Assembly (NCBI RefSeq): GCF_001983935.1
Contig: NZ_CP017641.1
Location: 3,162,001-3,226,000, forward strand
Direction: 5' to 3'
Origin: Fuerstiella marisgermanici
Lineage (GTDB): Bacteria; Planctomycetota; Planctomycetia; Planctomycetales; Planctomycetaceae
Length of the DNA: 64,000 nt
Shown here piece after piece: positions 4,627 through 15,121 of this stretch. A program made the translations under genes and the position numbers. Under the pieces are notes generated by a model. The model worked only from the letters and a program-made list of their open reading frames with translations. It was not told where the DNA came from and did not search any database. Positions within the stretch are counted from its first letter, which is position 1. Each line of letters starts with the position of its first letter.

Positions 4627-6615
4627 CTAAGGGGCAGCGTCACCGATGGGGCGAAAGCGTAAGTCGTTGGGATCGAAAACGTACAGCGTTCGATCCGGAA
4701 ACTCCTGACGGAGGTCCTGAATTTCCTGGTCCGTGGCAGGTCGTCGACAGATAAGGACCGGCCCCTGTAGATCCGGCGGATTGATGACGTAGCTTAGCTG
4801 AGGATCGGTGTCTCGTTCGTCAACAAGGACCAGCGCTGGCTTCTGCATGGACTCGCTGCGGACGGCGTTGTTGAAGTACGCGAACCGGGTGCGGGAAAAC
4901 GCCTGCTCCTGGATCGCGGCAGACGCCTTTGATGTGTCCCCGAATTCCGGTAGCGAGACCCACCCCGGCAACAGACTCACGCCAACAAACATTCCCGTCC
5001 ACGCAACAGCCAAACGCGGCGACGTGCGCTGGCTAACTGTTGTCGTAGCGTCGGCGATGCCAACGGCTGTCAACATCAGCATCAGCGGAGCCGTTTCGAA
5101 GACGTAATGCCAGTGCATGATTCCGTCGAACCAATAGGGAACGTGCACCGCATGCAGGCACACGGTTGCCCCCGCCAGTAACTTTAATCCCGTTGCTGTC
5201 GCGATTCGATTCCCAGCGTTGTCGCCGACCGACAGATCGTTGCGTGAAGTAGAAGCATCACCTGGTCGTGATCCTGATCGTGATTTCAGAAGTCGGCCGC
5301 TGATGATCACGGCAAACAGAATCGGAACCGACGACAACGACCAGAACAGGCTGTACCGCAACCGCGACCACACATTGCGCATGGCCTCAGCCGGCGTGAG
5401 GTTCTTTGCCCATTCGTTGTATTTCTGAATCGCAGGCGGACCGGGCACTTCGGACGCCTCATCCCCGTTGCCGAATCCGTAGCGATGTCGAGGCGTGTAG
5501 CGATCGGTGTATTCCTGGTAGGCTGTGCGAGTCCACCGCCCCGTGGCATCGTGGTTCAGGATCGCCAGCGCTGCGAATCCGCAAATAAGCGGCACTGCAA
5601 ATCCTGCGATCAGGCGACGGTGAACCGCGAAGGCGTCTGCGGAAATTCTTCGACTGCGGACGAGCGAGTACACCAACCAGATTCCGAATGGCAGACCGAA
5701 CCCCGCCGCCGTCATCGGGCGCCCCAACATTGCGAGCGTCAGCGCAGTACCGGCCACAAACGCCCATCGCAGTTTTAGTGTGGCCATCATCCGTAGAAAG
5801 CCGCACAGAAAGACACTCAGCGCCAGCATCGTGGGATGATGAGCCAACAGTAAATTGCTGAAGATGGCGAGTCCCGGACTCACGGCAATCAGAAACCCGG
5901 CCAGCAGCGATACCGACCGCGACATGAAGTGGCGCATCGACAGATAAAAGAAAGCCGCCGCGAGTCCGCCAGCCAGCCAGTGACCCCAAAACGGATGTCC
6001 GAAGGCTTCGAAAGGAGCAATCCACAGGCCCGTCCATGGGAAATAGCGACTGACCGTGCGGTCTTCGTTCAGTACATGAAACTGATGAAACAGATCAGGA
6101 CGAACCGTCGCTGGCGGGTAAGAAAGTCGCCCTTGCAGAAAGGTTCTGGCCTGCAGCAAATAGCTGTACTCATCGTGATAAGCCGGCGGAAGGTCGGCGA
6201 ACGCAATATTTTGCGCGCCCTGATCAGTCTGCACGTCAATCGGTCGGCTGCCGATCCACCAACTGCAGCAAACCGAAATCGCGCACACGACGGCGCAGTC
6301 GAAAATCGTTTTCGACACGCTGTGCGAACGTGGCGCAGCCGTGGCCTGCGCTGGAGCTGTTTTGCGAGGTCTGTCAGAACGCCCCCGCCAGACCAGAATC
6401 GGCAGCAGCAACAGCACGACAAACGGAAGCGTGGTTTCCATGTCCCAGTACAGCAGGAAGGTGGTCAGGCTGCCGCCATCTTCCATGATGCTTCGCAGCC
6501 TCAACGCTTCCAGCCATCCGCAGCCCCCCAGACACACGGCTGCTGCCGCCCACAGCCAGCGCCAGCGGGATGTGGAATCCGAGGTGTCATCGGGATCTGG
6601 CATTGCCATCGTCAC
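4627..6615 (-). CDS. Multi-pass membrane protein, GT-C glycosyltransferase-like
   Basis: The 662-residue protein has roughly a dozen hydrophobic segments, the first near residues 20-40. An acidic loop motif, YHDEYSYLLQARTFLQG (about 145-162), sits before the third segment, as in ArnT/PMT-type GT-C transferases, where acidic residues at that place bind the polyprenyl-phosphate sugar donor. The C-terminal part (about residue 560 on) is soluble and ends with a small alpha/beta region containing VLVDERDTDPQLSYV. I infer transfer of a sugar from a lipid carrier at the outer face of the membrane; donor and acceptor are unknown. It starts 8 bases after the stop of the GspE-like gene, so the two are likely cotranscribed. 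ATGs two and four codons downstream are alternative starts. Confidence 0.65.
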   Translation of the reverse strand: MTMAMPDPDDTSDSTSRWRWLWAAAAVCLGGCGWLEALRLRSIMEDGGSLTTFLLYWDMETTLPFVVLLLLPILVWRGRSDRPRKTAPAQATAAPRSHSVSKTIFDCAVVCAISVCCSWWIGSRPIDVQTDQGAQNIAFADLPPAYHDEYSYLLQARTFLQGRLSYPPATVRPDLFHQFHVLNEDRTVSRYFPWTGLWIAPFEAFGHPFWGHWLAGGLAAAFFYLSMRHFMSRSVSLLAGFLIAVSPGLAIFSNLLLAHHPTMLALSVFLCGFLRMMATLKLRWAFVAGTALTLAMLGRPMTAAGFGLPFGIWLVYSLVRSRRISADAFAVHRRLIAGFAVPLICGFAALAILNHDATGRWTRTAYQEYTDRYTPRHRYGFGNGDEASEVPGPPAIQKYNEWAKNLTPAEAMRNVWSRLRYSLFWSLSSVPILFAVIISGRLLKSRSGSRPGDASTSRNDLSVGDNAGNRIATATGLKLLAGATVCLHAVHVPYWFDGIMHWHYVFETAPLMLMLTAVGIADATTTVSQRTSPRLAVAWTGMFVGVSLLPGWVSLPEFGDTSKASAAIQEQAFSRTRFAYFNNAVRSESMQKPALVLVDERDTDPQLSYVINPPDLQGPVLICRRPATDQEIQDLRQEFPDRTLYVFDPNDLRFRPIGDAAP

Positions 6616-6623
6616 GCCATGTT

Positions 6624-7973
6624 CTATGACTGCGGACGCGGCCGAGGTCGTCGCCCTTTGGGGCGACGTCCCCGTGGCGGAGCGAAGACTCGCTGAACTT
6701 CTTCCAATGAAGTCTTACCTTCCGCAACCAGACGCAATGCGTCTTTCTGAATGGTCCTCATCCCATCCGACGACATCTGCTGTTTGATTGCGTCCGGTTC
6801 GGCTCCAGCAAGGACGACGTCCTTCATGCCTTCGGTCATTTCGAGCAGTTCGAACGCCGCTGTCCTGCCATGGTACGGTACGCCATCGCAATCGGCACAC
6901 AATTCCTCAACCGTCGGAGCATCCTCGTCCTCCGGATCAGGCGGCGCGGGAGCCCGGTACAAAACCGTTGTCTCTGGCGGCAGCGAGAGACGTTTCAGCA
7001 ATTGCGGGTTGGGTCGGAACGCTTGTTTACAGTCGTCACAAAGCGTGCGAATCAGTTTCTGAGTCACCACGCCGCGCAGGTGTTGAGCGACCGCTTCTGT
7101 TCCCACCCACTCGATCAGTTGTTTGATCGCCTCGGCAGGCGTCCGTCCGCCGATTTCCGCCACAAAACACAGCCGGTCAGCAAACGTGAACATCGTTTGC
7201 ACAACGGCCGGATCCGTCAGCTTACCCATGTAGATAATGTCGGCTTCGCGGCGAATGATCCGGTCCAGGCTCAGTTCCAGATCGTGGCCTTCTTCGCCTT
7301 CGTAGTCGGTAACGTTAATCAGTTCTTTATTACCAACGTCCGCCAGATTGAACACTGAATACAAATACGGATCGACGCAGTGCAGCGCGCAGATGGAGAG
7401 CGACGTCACGCCTGTTTCGGGCGGTCCACAGGCCAGAATGATGCCCTTCGAATCTTCCGTAAAGCTGCGAAGTTTTTTCGACAGATCTTCCGGCATCCCG
7501 ACCGACGCCGGCTTCAGATACGTGATCTTGGGGTTTTCAACTCGAATGCGCAACCGTTCGACACCCGGCTTTAACGGCACGAAGTCGGTGTAGAGTTCGT
7601 AGCGAGTGCCATCAAATTCGGCGTTGATTCCGCCGGACTGCGGCGCGGTGCGTTCCTGCGGATTCAGCCCCGCCAGGACCTTGGTCATCTGAATCAAAGC
7701 AATCCCGCGTTGACCGGGAAGTGCGCCGGCAGGATACGGAATTCCGTCGACAACAAACCGAATGGCGATCCGCCCCTGAGTCGGTTCCAGCAGAATGGTG
7801 TGGGCTCGGCGAGCCAGACCATCCGAGATCATGCGTTTGACCTGAACCAGAGCGGCTTTGACGAGGCGCGGATTCTTTTTCAGGTTGGCTTCACGACCGA
7901 ACATCGGGCCTTGAAACAGGACCTGCTCTGTATCTTCGTACTCTTCGTCACCTTCGTCGTCGCCTTGTCCCAC
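6624..7973 (-). CDS. GspE/PilB-family ATPase-like protein with degenerate nucleotide site
   Basis: The 449-residue protein follows the GspE/PilB/PilT secretion-ATPase layout: an N-terminal PAS-like half with VVDGIPYP (about 74-81), an ATPase half, and a zinc tetracysteine region (C312xxC315 and C359xxC362). The Walker A position reads GPPETGVTS (183-191), with Val189 where the invariant Lys should be. The Walker B/Asp-box position reads IIYMGKLTD (246-254), with Lys where the usual Glu of GEIRD stands. It probably does not hydrolyse ATP in the canonical way. No pilin, PilC/GspF or secretin gene is adjacent. The C-terminus is a strongly basic Arg/Pro/Gly tail. It lies between a phosphodiesterase gene (120-base gap) and a membrane glycosyltransferase-like gene (8-base gap). 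Confidence 0.85.
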   Translation of the reverse strand: MGQGDDEGDEEYEDTEQVLFQGPMFGREANLKKNPRLVKAALVQVKRMISDGLARRAHTILLEPTQGRIAIRFVVDGIPYPAGALPGQRGIALIQMTKVLAGLNPQERTAPQSGGINAEFDGTRYELYTDFVPLKPGVERLRIRVENPKITYLKPASVGMPEDLSKKLRSFTEDSKGIILACGPPETGVTSLSICALHCVDPYLYSVFNLADVGNKELINVTDYEGEEGHDLELSLDRIIRREADIIYMGKLTDPAVVQTMFTFADRLCFVAEIGGRTPAEAIKQLIEWVGTEAVAQHLRGVVTQKLIRTLCDDCKQAFRPNPQLLKRLSLPPETTVLYRAPAPPDPEDEDAPTVEELCADCDGVPYHGRTAAFELLEMTEGMKDVVLAGAEPDAIKQQMSSDGMRTIQKDALRLVAEGKTSLEEVQRVFAPPRGRRPKGRRPRPRPQS

Positions 7974-8093: not shown

Positions 8094-9500
8094 TCACGCG
8101 CCGAATTGCAGATCCAGGATCAAATCTCGCACGTCTTTCGCGTGAATATCGTCACGTTCCGCTCGTCCATTGTTGCACACGAACACCGGGCCGTCAGATT
8201 CCATTCGGTCGGCATCCGGCAAACGACCGTGACTGCCTTTGACAATCGATGCATCCAGACCGATCAGGTCCATGTAGTAGCGGAAACCAGCCAGTTTGCG
8301 AGCCAACCTGCGAGCCACCTTTAACTTTGGAAACGGAATTGTCGGATCCACAAACAATTCCACCGGGTCGTACCCCGGTTTCCGATGAATGTCGACCGTG
8401 CGAGCGTAGTCCGGGGCGAGTTGATCGTCCTGCCAGAAGTAATATGTAAACCACGCGTCTACCGCACTCACCGCCACGAGGTCTCCGCTGCGTGAGTGAT
8501 CGATGCCGAATCCTGCCTGCTGACTTCGACCCAGCACGGCTTCTACCCCATCGAGCTTCGTCAACACAGACCGCACCTGTTGCAGCTTCGCAGCGTCGTT
8601 CACATAAACATGAGCAACCTGATGATCGGCGACGGCAAAGGCGGCTGAAGCCCCCGCGTCCAGCGTTTCCCAGCCAAGCGATTCGCGACGCACGGCCAGC
8701 AATCCCGCATCACGCAACGCTCGGTTGATGTGAATCGGTTTCGTCACCTGTGTGATGCCGTACTCCGACAACACAATCACGTCCGCATCGCGTTGTTTTG
8801 CGGCATCGATGATTTTTCCAGCTTCAACATCAACCGCGCGAATGTCGTCGGCAATCGCCGGATCGTCCGGTCCTAAGCGTTGAAGGTTGTAGTCCAGATG
8901 CGGCAGGTACACGAGCGTCAGCGACGGATCCTGCTGCGTGAATATCTCAACGCTGCTGTCAGCGATCCACGCCGAACTTTTAATATCCGCCGTCGGTCCC
9001 CAAAAATTGAACAGCGGAAACTTGCCCAGCCTGGCCTGCAACGAATCTCGCAGATCAGCAGGATGACTGTAGATATCCGGAATCTTGCGTCCGTCGGCAG
9101 GGTACGACGGCCGCGGCGTCACAGACCAGGCGACGTCGGCGTACATGTTGTACCACCAGAACATCTTCGCCGTGGTGTGCGCGGCATCACGTTGTCGAGC
9201 GGTCTGGAAGACTTTTTCAGCGTCGATCAGGTGGTTCGACTGCTTCCAGAACATCACTTCCGCAAGGTCGCGAGCATACCAGCCATTGCCGACGATGCCG
9301 TGTTCAGCGGGCATCGCACCGGTCAGCATTGTTGCCTGTACAGAACACGTGACGGCAGGCAGCACGGTCTGCATCGGGCGACCGAAACCTTGTTGCATCA
9401 GCGACCGAATGTTCGGCGTGTTGTCACCGATCATGTCCCATATTAGGCCCACGACATTGATGACAACCAACTGGCGATGAGAACGATTGGGATCAGTCAT
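8094..9500 (-). CDS. Alkaline-phosphatase-superfamily nucleotide pyrophosphatase/phosphodiesterase
   Basis: The 468-residue protein belongs to the type I phosphodiesterase/NPP group. It has VVINVVGLIWD at the N-terminus, then VTCSVQATMLTGAMPAEHGIVGNGW (residues 50-74), where Thr51 is the likely nucleophile and Asn72 the substrate-contacting residue. Further metal-site segments are VYLPHLDYNLQ, SEYGITQV, AVADHQ and SHGRLPD near the C-terminus. No signal peptide is seen. The NVVGL variant of the first motif is shared, from memory, with the phosphodiesterase of ebo-type gene clusters, but no other ebo gene is here. It begins 3 bases after the sulfotransferase stop and precedes the GspE-like gene. 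Substrate unknown; cleavage of a phosphodiester in a lipid or nucleotide metabolite is the general expectation. Confidence 0.85.
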   Translation of the reverse strand: MTDPNRSHRQLVVINVVGLIWDMIGDNTPNIRSLMQQGFGRPMQTVLPAVTCSVQATMLTGAMPAEHGIVGNGWYARDLAEVMFWKQSNHLIDAEKVFQTARQRDAAHTTAKMFWWYNMYADVAWSVTPRPSYPADGRKIPDIYSHPADLRDSLQARLGKFPLFNFWGPTADIKSSAWIADSSVEIFTQQDPSLTLVYLPHLDYNLQRLGPDDPAIADDIRAVDVEAGKIIDAAKQRDADVIVLSEYGITQVTKPIHINRALRDAGLLAVRRESLGWETLDAGASAAFAVADHQVAHVYVNDAAKLQQVRSVLTKLDGVEAVLGRSQQAGFGIDHSRSGDLVAVSAVDAWFTYYFWQDDQLAPDYARTVDIHRKPGYDPVELFVDPTIPFPKLKVARRLARKLAGFRYYMDLIGLDASIVKGSHGRLPDADRMESDGPVFVCNNGRAERDDIHAKDVRDLILDLQFGA

Positions 9501-9503
9501 AAA

Positions 9504-10679
9504 TTACGACGCCGACGACGTAGCTTCCTTTTCAGAAGCGGGCGCTGCGGTCACTTCCGGCTTGTCGTAGCCGAAGCGGTCGAAGGCCGGCTTCAATTCG
9601 TTGTACACGCGATCCACCCAGTACGGGTCGTCGTTGAATTCGTTCTTCTTATAACGTTTCAGCGATTCCACCTGCGGTTCAAGTTCCTTCTCCAGCGCTT
9701 CGAAGCCGGGAAGGTCGAGTCCCGCATAGGCTTTTCGCAGCACGCCAATCGGGTCCTGTTCCAGTTCTTCGTAACAGATTTCGTGACGGTGCTCTTCAGG
9801 AACCAGCAGGCGATCACGTTCGTACTTTTCGAAGCCGAATTTGTACGATTCAATCACCTGCTCTTCGTTGCCATCAAACACGCTGCGTCCCAGCGTGTTT
9901 TCTTCAATCATCCGCCGCCGCAGGTGCAGGGCAGAACGAAAAATGTTGTACGGGTTGCGGTGGATGTACAAGAACCGAGCGTCAGGGAATAGCTCTAACA
10001 ATTCCGGAATGCGATACGTGTGAAACGGCGACTTCATCATAATCCGTTTCGGTGACGTAAAGGTCAGCTTTTTCACCAGCAGCGCCAACGAATCCTTCCA
10101 GCGTTGACGTTCCTCGGGCTCCAGTCGCTCAAAGTCCAATGCCTTCCAGAAGTGCGAAAAGTCGGTCGGGTGAGACAGCAAATTGATGGGCGACACGTTG
10201 CTCATGATGCACAGAGAAACGTCGTCTTCCTGCGGCGCGTCCCAATGAACCGACATGTTGTCCATCGGGCGATTCTTAGGGACAAACGGAGCCGTCAGCT
10301 TAGTGACGGCTTTTTCCGTCAGTAGAAAGTGCCACGGAAAGAGAGCTCGGTACAGGCCCAGATGTTGAAACTGTGGATCGTGGCTGAGCAGGTTTTGCAG
10401 CAGCGTGGTTCCACTGCGCCAATAGCCGAAGACAAACAGCGGCGGATGCTCAACCTTCGTTTCGCGAACACGTTTCCCATAGACCAGCGATTCGGCCCGC
10501 TTCATCACGGAATTGAACACGCCCGAAACCGGCAGACTCAGGATGCGGCCAAGGCGACTCCAATGCAGCGACGGCTTCGACCGAAAAAGTCGCCACAGCC
10601 CGGAGCATGACATTCCGTGCCAAATCAACAGGCCACCCTGGGAGTGCTTCGCGGCTTTGGTGGTTTTCCTTGTGCTCAT
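9504..10679 (-). CDS. PAPS-dependent sulfotransferase
   Basis: The 391-residue protein has the two PAPS-binding signatures of the family: the 5'-phosphosulfate loop GYWRSGTTLLQNLL (residues 85-98) and the 3'-phosphate motif LYIHRNPYNIFRSALHLRRR (about 220-239). The segment PKRIMMKSPFHTYRIPELLELFP precedes the second motif, as in the bacterial sulfotransferase_3 type. It should transfer sulfate from PAPS to a hydroxyl on a glycan, lipid or small molecule. The last ~25 residues are Ala/Ser/Glu-rich and probably disordered. The downstream phosphodiesterase gene starts 3 bases after its stop, indicating coupling. Planctomycetes often carry many sulfotransferases alongside sulfatases; none of the latter is seen here. 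Confidence 0.9.
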   Translation of the reverse strand: MSTRKTTKAAKHSQGGLLIWHGMSCSGLWRLFRSKPSLHWSRLGRILSLPVSGVFNSVMKRAESLVYGKRVRETKVEHPPLFVFGYWRSGTTLLQNLLSHDPQFQHLGLYRALFPWHFLLTEKAVTKLTAPFVPKNRPMDNMSVHWDAPQEDDVSLCIMSNVSPINLLSHPTDFSHFWKALDFERLEPEERQRWKDSLALLVKKLTFTSPKRIMMKSPFHTYRIPELLELFPDARFLYIHRNPYNIFRSALHLRRRMIEENTLGRSVFDGNEEQVIESYKFGFEKYERDRLLVPEEHRHEICYEELEQDPIGVLRKAYAGLDLPGFEALEKELEPQVESLKRYKKNEFNDDPYWVDRVYNELKPAFDRFGYDKPEVTAAPASEKEATSSAS

Positions 10680-14305: not shown

Positions 14306-15121
14306 ATGTACGAAACCTATTGGAATCTCAGCCGCAAGCCGTTTGGTTATCGAGTTGCGGTCGACGACTTGTATCGTTCGAAAGCCGTTCAGTCTGCCGC
14401 GCTGCGCCTGCGCTATTGCATCGACAACAATGCCGGGGCCGCTCTGTTGCTGGGAGCATCCGGTCTCGGCAAGTCTAGTTTGGTGCAGCTATTGAAAGCC
14501 GATGGAACAGAACTGCGACCGTTCGTCCACGTCGCCTTTCCCCGCCTTTCGCCGTCGGAATTGACTCGCGCTGTCGCCTGCGAACTGCTGCAGCAGGACA
14601 ACGTAGAAGACCTGCCGACTGACGTGCTGCTGGTCAAACAGTACAACTGTTTGTTAAAGCATGCGAAGCAGGGAAACCATCCCGTCATCGTCTTCGACGA
14701 AGCTCACCTGCTAAGCAACGACACTCTTGATGAAGTCGTTCTGCCGCTCTTGAATCTGGCGGACACAGACTACGGCTTACAGTTTTCCGTCATCCTTGTC
14801 GGCCAGGCCGTGCTGGGATCTCACATCGCCAGAAACGCGCAACTGCGAGAACGCATCGCCGTAACGGCAACCATGCACGGGCTCTCTGAAAACGAAACGG
14901 CCGACTACATTCGCACTCGTCTGGCCGACGCCGGTTGCGAACGAGAGATCTTCACGGACGAGGCCATCTCAGCCGTGATGAATCTAAGCGGCGGCAACCC
15001 ACGCCGCATCAACCGCCTCTGCGACATGGCACTGCTGGTCGGCTATTCGGATCAGGCTCAACGAATCGAAGGCACAGACATCGAAGCCCTCGCCACCGAA
15101 ATCTTACCCGCCGCCGCCTGA
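14306..15121 (+). CDS. ExeA/GspA-like AAA ATPase
   Basis: The 271-residue protein starts MYETYWNLSRKPFGY, the typical opening of ExeA-type (GspA) and phage MuB/TniB-related AAA ATPases. It carries Walker A GASGLGKSS (about residues 53-61), Walker B HPVIVFDEAHLL (about 125-136), a sensor region SVILVGQ and an arginine-finger-like segment ARNAQLRERI. A C-terminal helical lid has GGNPRRINRLCD (about 229-240). ExeA uses ATP to help insert the secretin through peptidoglycan. This protein lacks the C-terminal peptidoglycan-binding domain of full-length ExeA, and no secretin is nearby. The Thr/Pro-rich membrane protein just upstream is the likely partner. Confidence 0.85.
   Translation: MYETYWNLSRKPFGYRVAVDDLYRSKAVQSAALRLRYCIDNNAGAALLLGASGLGKSSLVQLLKADGTELRPFVHVAFPRLSPSELTRAVACELLQQDNVEDLPTDVLLVKQYNCLLKHAKQGNHPVIVFDEAHLLSNDTLDEVVLPLLNLADTDYGLQFSVILVGQAVLGSHIARNAQLRERIAVTATMHGLSENETADYIRTRLADAGCEREIFTDEAISAVMNLSGGNPRRINRLCDMALLVGYSDQAQRIEGTDIEALATEILPAAA

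Follow-up and report, generated by a model that had tools for sequence, protein, structure and literature searches.

The window, the whole 64,000-nucleotide stretch of DNA analysed here, carries on its reverse strand a gene (6624..7973) encoding a 449-aa protein with a predicted GspE/PilB assembly-ATPase fold and without an N-terminal membrane region. Its start codon is GTG, with AAGGA about 10 bases upstream. On the same strand it is flanked downstream by the gene of a GT-C-like membrane protein (4627..6615) and upstream by those of a type I phosphodiesterase (8094..9500, PF01663) and a sulfotransferase (9504..10679, PF13469). The genes are collinear, 120 and 8 bases separating the ATPase-like gene from its two immediate neighbours, and the GT-C-like call scores under its threshold (PMT_2, 24.4 bits, cut-off 26.1). 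Elsewhere in the window, on the forward strand (14306-15121), an AAA protein like the XrtA/PEP-CTERM-associated ATPase TIGR03015 is encoded (136 bits, below the cut-off of 324.5).

The GspE/PilB-like character named in the original prediction was borne out. The protein matches PF00437 (T2SSE) at 112 bits against a cut-off of 24.9 (E 3.4e-32), its sequence matches solved PilF, GspE and PilB chains, and an AlphaFold2 model built with 24 rows (mean pLDDT 76.7) has the N2-CTD fold, aligning over 368 residues with PilB 5tsh_C (Z 28.0, rmsd 7.1) and also with GspE 4ksr_A (Z 27.2). The tip of the P-loop (187-189) is modelled with a pLDDT below 50, and all NCBIfam equivalog cut-offs for GspE, PilB and TfpB lie far above the protein's scores. 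It had also been taken to be of normal size, which proved wrong: the nearest active relatives have about 570-670 aa, and the window protein, lacking the N-terminal membrane region that they have, is shorter. A simple hydropathy rule places membrane segments at the N-terminus of none of the 24 pseudo-ATPase rows. There we found instead the clade-specific motif EQVLFQGP (7905..7928, reverse strand), whose Phe20 and Gly22 occur in all 68 sequences having the region.

For the motif analysis, 69 distinct orthologues, among them that of the window and one partial sequence, were aligned with 61 canonical relatives, the latter left from 64 non-orthologue matches after three without Lys at the aligned column were dropped; the table of invariant sites used the 44 full-length canonical sequences. 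All motifs below lie on the reverse strand. The former Walker A motif reads GPPETGVTS (7401..7427), with Val189 (7407-7409) in place of Lys, as had been read from the letters. Orthologues with intact motifs were sought as evidence against a pseudo-ATPase, and not one of the 69 has the Walker A Lys (Val in 43, Thr in 12, Leu in 5, Ile in 3, Ser in 3, Ala in 2 and Arg in 1); chance can be discarded because the residue is lost in every sequence. The P-loop residues Gly183, Gly188 and Thr/Ser190 are unchanged in all 69. The segment MGKLTD (7212..7229) does have Lys251 (7221-7223) for Glu, but the label "Asp box" given to it was mistaken: it is the former Walker B motif, GEIRD in active relatives, and the true former Asp box is LADVGNKEL (7320..7346; EDPVEY-type in active relatives), with its first Glu in 1/69. 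Published work on Myxococcus PilB assigns E391 to Walker B (PMC5544727), and its match to the Glu site of the window protein is our reading by motif. The Walker B Glu is present in three orthologues, Pro being the commonest residue there (55/69) and Lys occurring in four. The expected recurrence of the substitutions therefore holds for the catalytic losses and fails for the identical Lys; judged from the alignment, the loss of the Glu is the conserved trait, and the Lys replacing it is not itself conserved. Neither His of the former His box, VAEIGGRT (7140..7163), is present in any orthologue, and Glu273 has been gained in 68/69 at a position that is Thr in canonical relatives. Any of the five catalytic residues is found in only 3/69. 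Arg at position 128, conserved in canonical relatives, is present in 15/69, and position 144 is Arg or Lys in 57/69. The zinc tetracysteine also described at the outset is indeed there, as CDDC (7029..7040) and CADC (6888..6899), and all four Cys of this putative zinc module occur in 68/69 orthologues. The sole orthologue read without all four is that of G025 (L081).

A 24-row profile searched against genomes from the class found an orthologue at no less than 413 bits in 84 of the 84 genomes of the window's family (counted from the listing by hand, with 112 genomes without a match taken as outside the family), and nothing above 285 bits in the other 213. In a phylum-wide draw, the 27 of 392 genomes matching at E 1e-95 or better all belong to the same family, and neither search found an orthologue outside it (Planctomycetaceae). 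A separate genome set gave orthologues in 34/36 family genomes, G015 and G026 having none. The nearest named relatives are from Fuerstiella sp. assemblies (76-77% over the alignment), placed by NCBI in the Planctomycetaceae. Nine genes from the genus and its closest kin were compared in 36 pairs; dS was below 1 in three of these, with dN/dS of 0.054, 0.072 and 0.073 (dS was 1.7 or more in the other pairs), and pN/pS was lowest, 0.18, in the zinc region. Sequence comparison thus indicates that the predicted two-domain fold, the putative zinc module and the P-loop glycine frame are kept under purifying selection, and the assignment of the protein as a conserved, family-wide pseudo-ATPase of known fold is well supported.

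The flanking genes were compared across 56 loci, made up of the window and two sets of 25 and 30, in which some genomes occur twice under different ids. The phosphodiesterase gene lies beside the orthologue in 21 loci and the sulfotransferase gene in three, two of them from the same species, and the GT-C-like protein has no homologue near the other 55; the same neighbours thus do not recur, contrary to what had been anticipated. Upstream, dapA is found instead in 16 loci; a MutS-like gene lies downstream in 12, and an FGE-type gene is present in 10 (all three names are readings of translations). The operon-like run originally described is present, with the GT-C-like member sub-threshold, but its value as a clue does not survive the comparison: the neighbours change between clades and therefore give no pointer to the function of the pseudo-ATPase.

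No pilus or secretion genes lie beside the pseudo-ATPase gene in the window, and across the 56 loci the orthologues showed no adjoining PilT-like or CvpA-like cluster. GspF-like genes are close by only in G011 and G024, where the filament-type genes lie downstream of a CNNM gene that itself follows the pseudo-ATPase gene. A GspF-like F1-F2-F3 locus was rejected as the partner, since in most genomes a canonical ATPase of about 400 aa belongs to it; in G011, G018 and G022 a canonical gene of similar size occurs elsewhere in the genome. The adjacency of that locus to the pseudo-ATPase gene is therefore treated as a local rearrangement. A T2SS-like locus (L118:3105-12787, at about 1.82-1.83 Mb of the window's genome; also L119-L137) contains a small canonical ATPase, three GspF-like genes and small pseudopilin-like and DUF1559-like genes; there is a resemblance, and a resemblance only, to Plim_0410-0401, a secretion locus described for P. 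limnophila (PMC10632474). An orphan GspF/PilC-like gene without an ATPase beside it (L230:9590-10633; 5142589-5143629 of its own genome) was found in 35/36 family genomes, G012 being the one without it. As a candidate partner it was set aside as uninformative, since other families have it without the pseudo-ATPase, as do G015 and G026.

By score and by tree, the nearest canonical relatives are membrane-anchored PilB-like ATPases encoded in a conserved gene run of hisF, PilT-like ATPase, PilB-like ATPase and CvpA-like protein (example loci are L106:7328-11270, L109, L211 and L212). Two of the CvpA-like proteins were tested, one matching PF02674 at 30.3 bits and the other, at 27.3, falling just under the cut-off of 29.3. 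Two or more membrane segments precede residue 260 in 22/24 of the operon ATPases (same hydropathy rule), of which Pfam recognised the ATPase part alone. The PilT-like gene is present in 58/58 genomes, and its product has intact motifs in 21/21 loci read (one truncated row excluded). The PilB-like operon copies are less uniform: 15/24 have canonical motifs and 9/24 are degraded, which is not a rate, the genomes having been picked partly for scores. Five copies lack the Walker A Lys (G039, G044, G048, G053 and G056); those of G041, G054 and G079 have it and have lost the His-box His and the Walker B Glu, and the G040 copy has both the Lys and the Glu and has lost the His-box His. The G056 copy (L210) was outside the tree and the first motif table, and its motifs were read separately.

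In the tree, the pseudo-ATPases form one clade (100/100) inside the PilB-like subfamily, whose own branch has 100/99 support. On this phylogenetic evidence the window protein descends from the planctomycete membrane-anchored PilB-like ATPases. The degraded operon copies group with the pseudo-ATPases of the window clade at 94/67 and 96/87, and the alternative, uniting the pseudo-ATPases with the canonical copies of their own family, is weakly rejected (AU p 0.028). Because the branches are long, a choice between a single old loss and several separate losses would not be firm. The wider pattern, in which several families show catalytic loss at a single operon position, most deserves further attention.

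The window's genome, a single contig of 8.92 Mb, contains 14 T2SSE-like matches; of those that pass the cut-off, the window gene scores lowest. It retains hisF and the PilT-like gene at about 6.42 Mb; in the stretch that follows, neither a PilB-like ATPase gene nor a CvpA-like one was recognised, and the next frame is transposase-like, as its translation reads. It appears that the canonical operon ATPase was lost from the genus and its sisters and the pseudo-ATPase retained. A single match only is found in 15/84 family genomes, and 13 of these 15 belong to the high-scoring group that includes the window.

Taken together, we favour with moderate confidence an explanation in which a type IV filament motor has a fixed, apo-like pseudo-ATPase as its partner in docking or signalling. 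The protein would fold and assemble like PilB/GspE and, by analogy with a PilB mutant discussed below, may be locked in an apo-like state. It could dock on the type IV filament machine through its zinc module and the clade-specific N-terminal LFQG motif, the latter a candidate docking site, and would act there as an ATP-independent scaffold, brake or signal, not by pulling. Its likeliest active partner would be the PilT-like motor, the choice being made because of ancestry, as operon neighbour of the nearest relatives; that is the one ground for it. The suggestion of a pseudo-ATPase repurposed as a scaffold or regulator is thus upheld in its first half, and the role can reasonably be inferred. 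Against a filament-motor role, no gene order links the pseudo-ATPase to the PilT-like motor, G015 and G026 have the PilT-like gene without an orthologue, G011 retains another canonical ATPase elsewhere, and in the G025 orthologue all four Cys are gone. Separately, we noticed the pseudo-ATPase and PilT-like genes about 17 and 26 kb apart on the same contig in two genomes (G017 C67 and G035 C41), which could be chance.

A type IV filament motor is nonetheless a more likely partner than the window neighbours. A scaffold of the local sulfotransferase, phosphodiesterase and GT-C run, unrelated to filament machines, would suit the close collinear spacing and the phosphodiesterase genes adjoining the orthologue in several relatives; with the sulfotransferase at three loci, the GT-C-like protein in the window only and dapA instead in 16, we consider it very improbable. 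Still less can be said for decay into a relic, local mutation or sequencing error. The altered motifs taken alone would fit such an origin, which is refuted by the absence of the Walker A Lys from every orthologue, by the dN/dS of 0.05-0.07 and by the presence of the gene throughout the 84 family genomes; we give it practically no credence.

The remaining readings concern what the protein does with its P-loop and with whom it assembles. With its glycines and Thr kept, the P-loop could still bind some ligand; using the P-loop frame and non-standard residues, the protein might hold a nucleotide or a different phosphate ligand and work either as a sensor of that ligand or as an NTPase of an unusual kind. 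Besides the invariant P-loop positions, the basic residue at 144 and the Glu273 gained in the former His box are compatible with this, but with the Walker A Lys and the His-box His never present, the Asp-box and Walker B Glu in one and three sequences, Arg at 128 in a minority and the P-loop tip poorly modelled, it seems to us unlikely. Harder to credit is a mixed hexamer in which the pseudo-ATPase tunes the firing pattern of an active PilB/GspE-type ATPase from the same cell. The fold is identical in kind to that of PilB, and G000 has several canonical assembly ATPases; the next best G000 match, however, is only 27% identical to the pseudo-ATPase, and the nearest canonical relative is absent from the window's genus and sisters, which retain the pseudo-ATPase.

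Type IV filament motors are usually described as active ATPases. A selected, family-wide pseudo-ATPase of the GspE/PilB fold would show an ATP-independent job for this fold, as a Myxococcus PilB mutant hints, and would offer a natural system for separating docking and signalling from power. An unchanging PilT-like motor with a degraded PilB-like neighbour would allow a test of whether a filament machine can run on a retraction-type motor alone. More tentatively, and with considerable doubt, we suggest a planctomycete filament-like envelope machine with a universal PilT-type motor, whose PilB-like partner has repeatedly turned into a dead structural or signalling subunit. In several families this would have happened at its place in the hisF-PilT-PilB-CvpA run, and in Planctomycetaceae by family-wide fixation of a pseudo-ATPase free in the cytosol; such a type IV filament system would manage without an active assembly ATPase of its own.

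Compared with known systems, the window protein shares with the GspE/PilB assembly ATPases (PF00437; EpsE, PilB, PilF) the two-domain fold, the tetracysteine and the structural glycines and arginines; unlike them, it lacks the residues of ATP chemistry and an N-terminal membrane or N1-type domain, and in the window its gene lies away from pilus and secretion genes. From the planctomycete PilB-like operon ATPases it differs in having no membrane segments and in its position outside the PilT-like/CvpA-like slot. Among the titles and abstract openings listed by searches of open-access literature, none described a natural pseudo-ATPase of the GspE/PilB family or the hisF-PilT-PilB-CvpA operon. The PilT/PilU retraction ATPases have the superfamily fold in common with the window protein (Z about 20-22) but lack its tetracysteine module, and EpsE function is reported to require zinc coordination (PMC5061722). 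The closest functional precedent would be the Walker A mutant K327A of Myxococcus xanthus PilB, which resembles apo PilB, does not support motility and still drives exopolysaccharide production, in a pilA deletion more strongly than active PilB does (PMC5544727). By analogy, absence of ATPase activity combined with a signalling role may be common to both proteins, but the Myxococcus variant is a laboratory mutant of an active motor, whereas the loss in the window protein is natural and family-wide.
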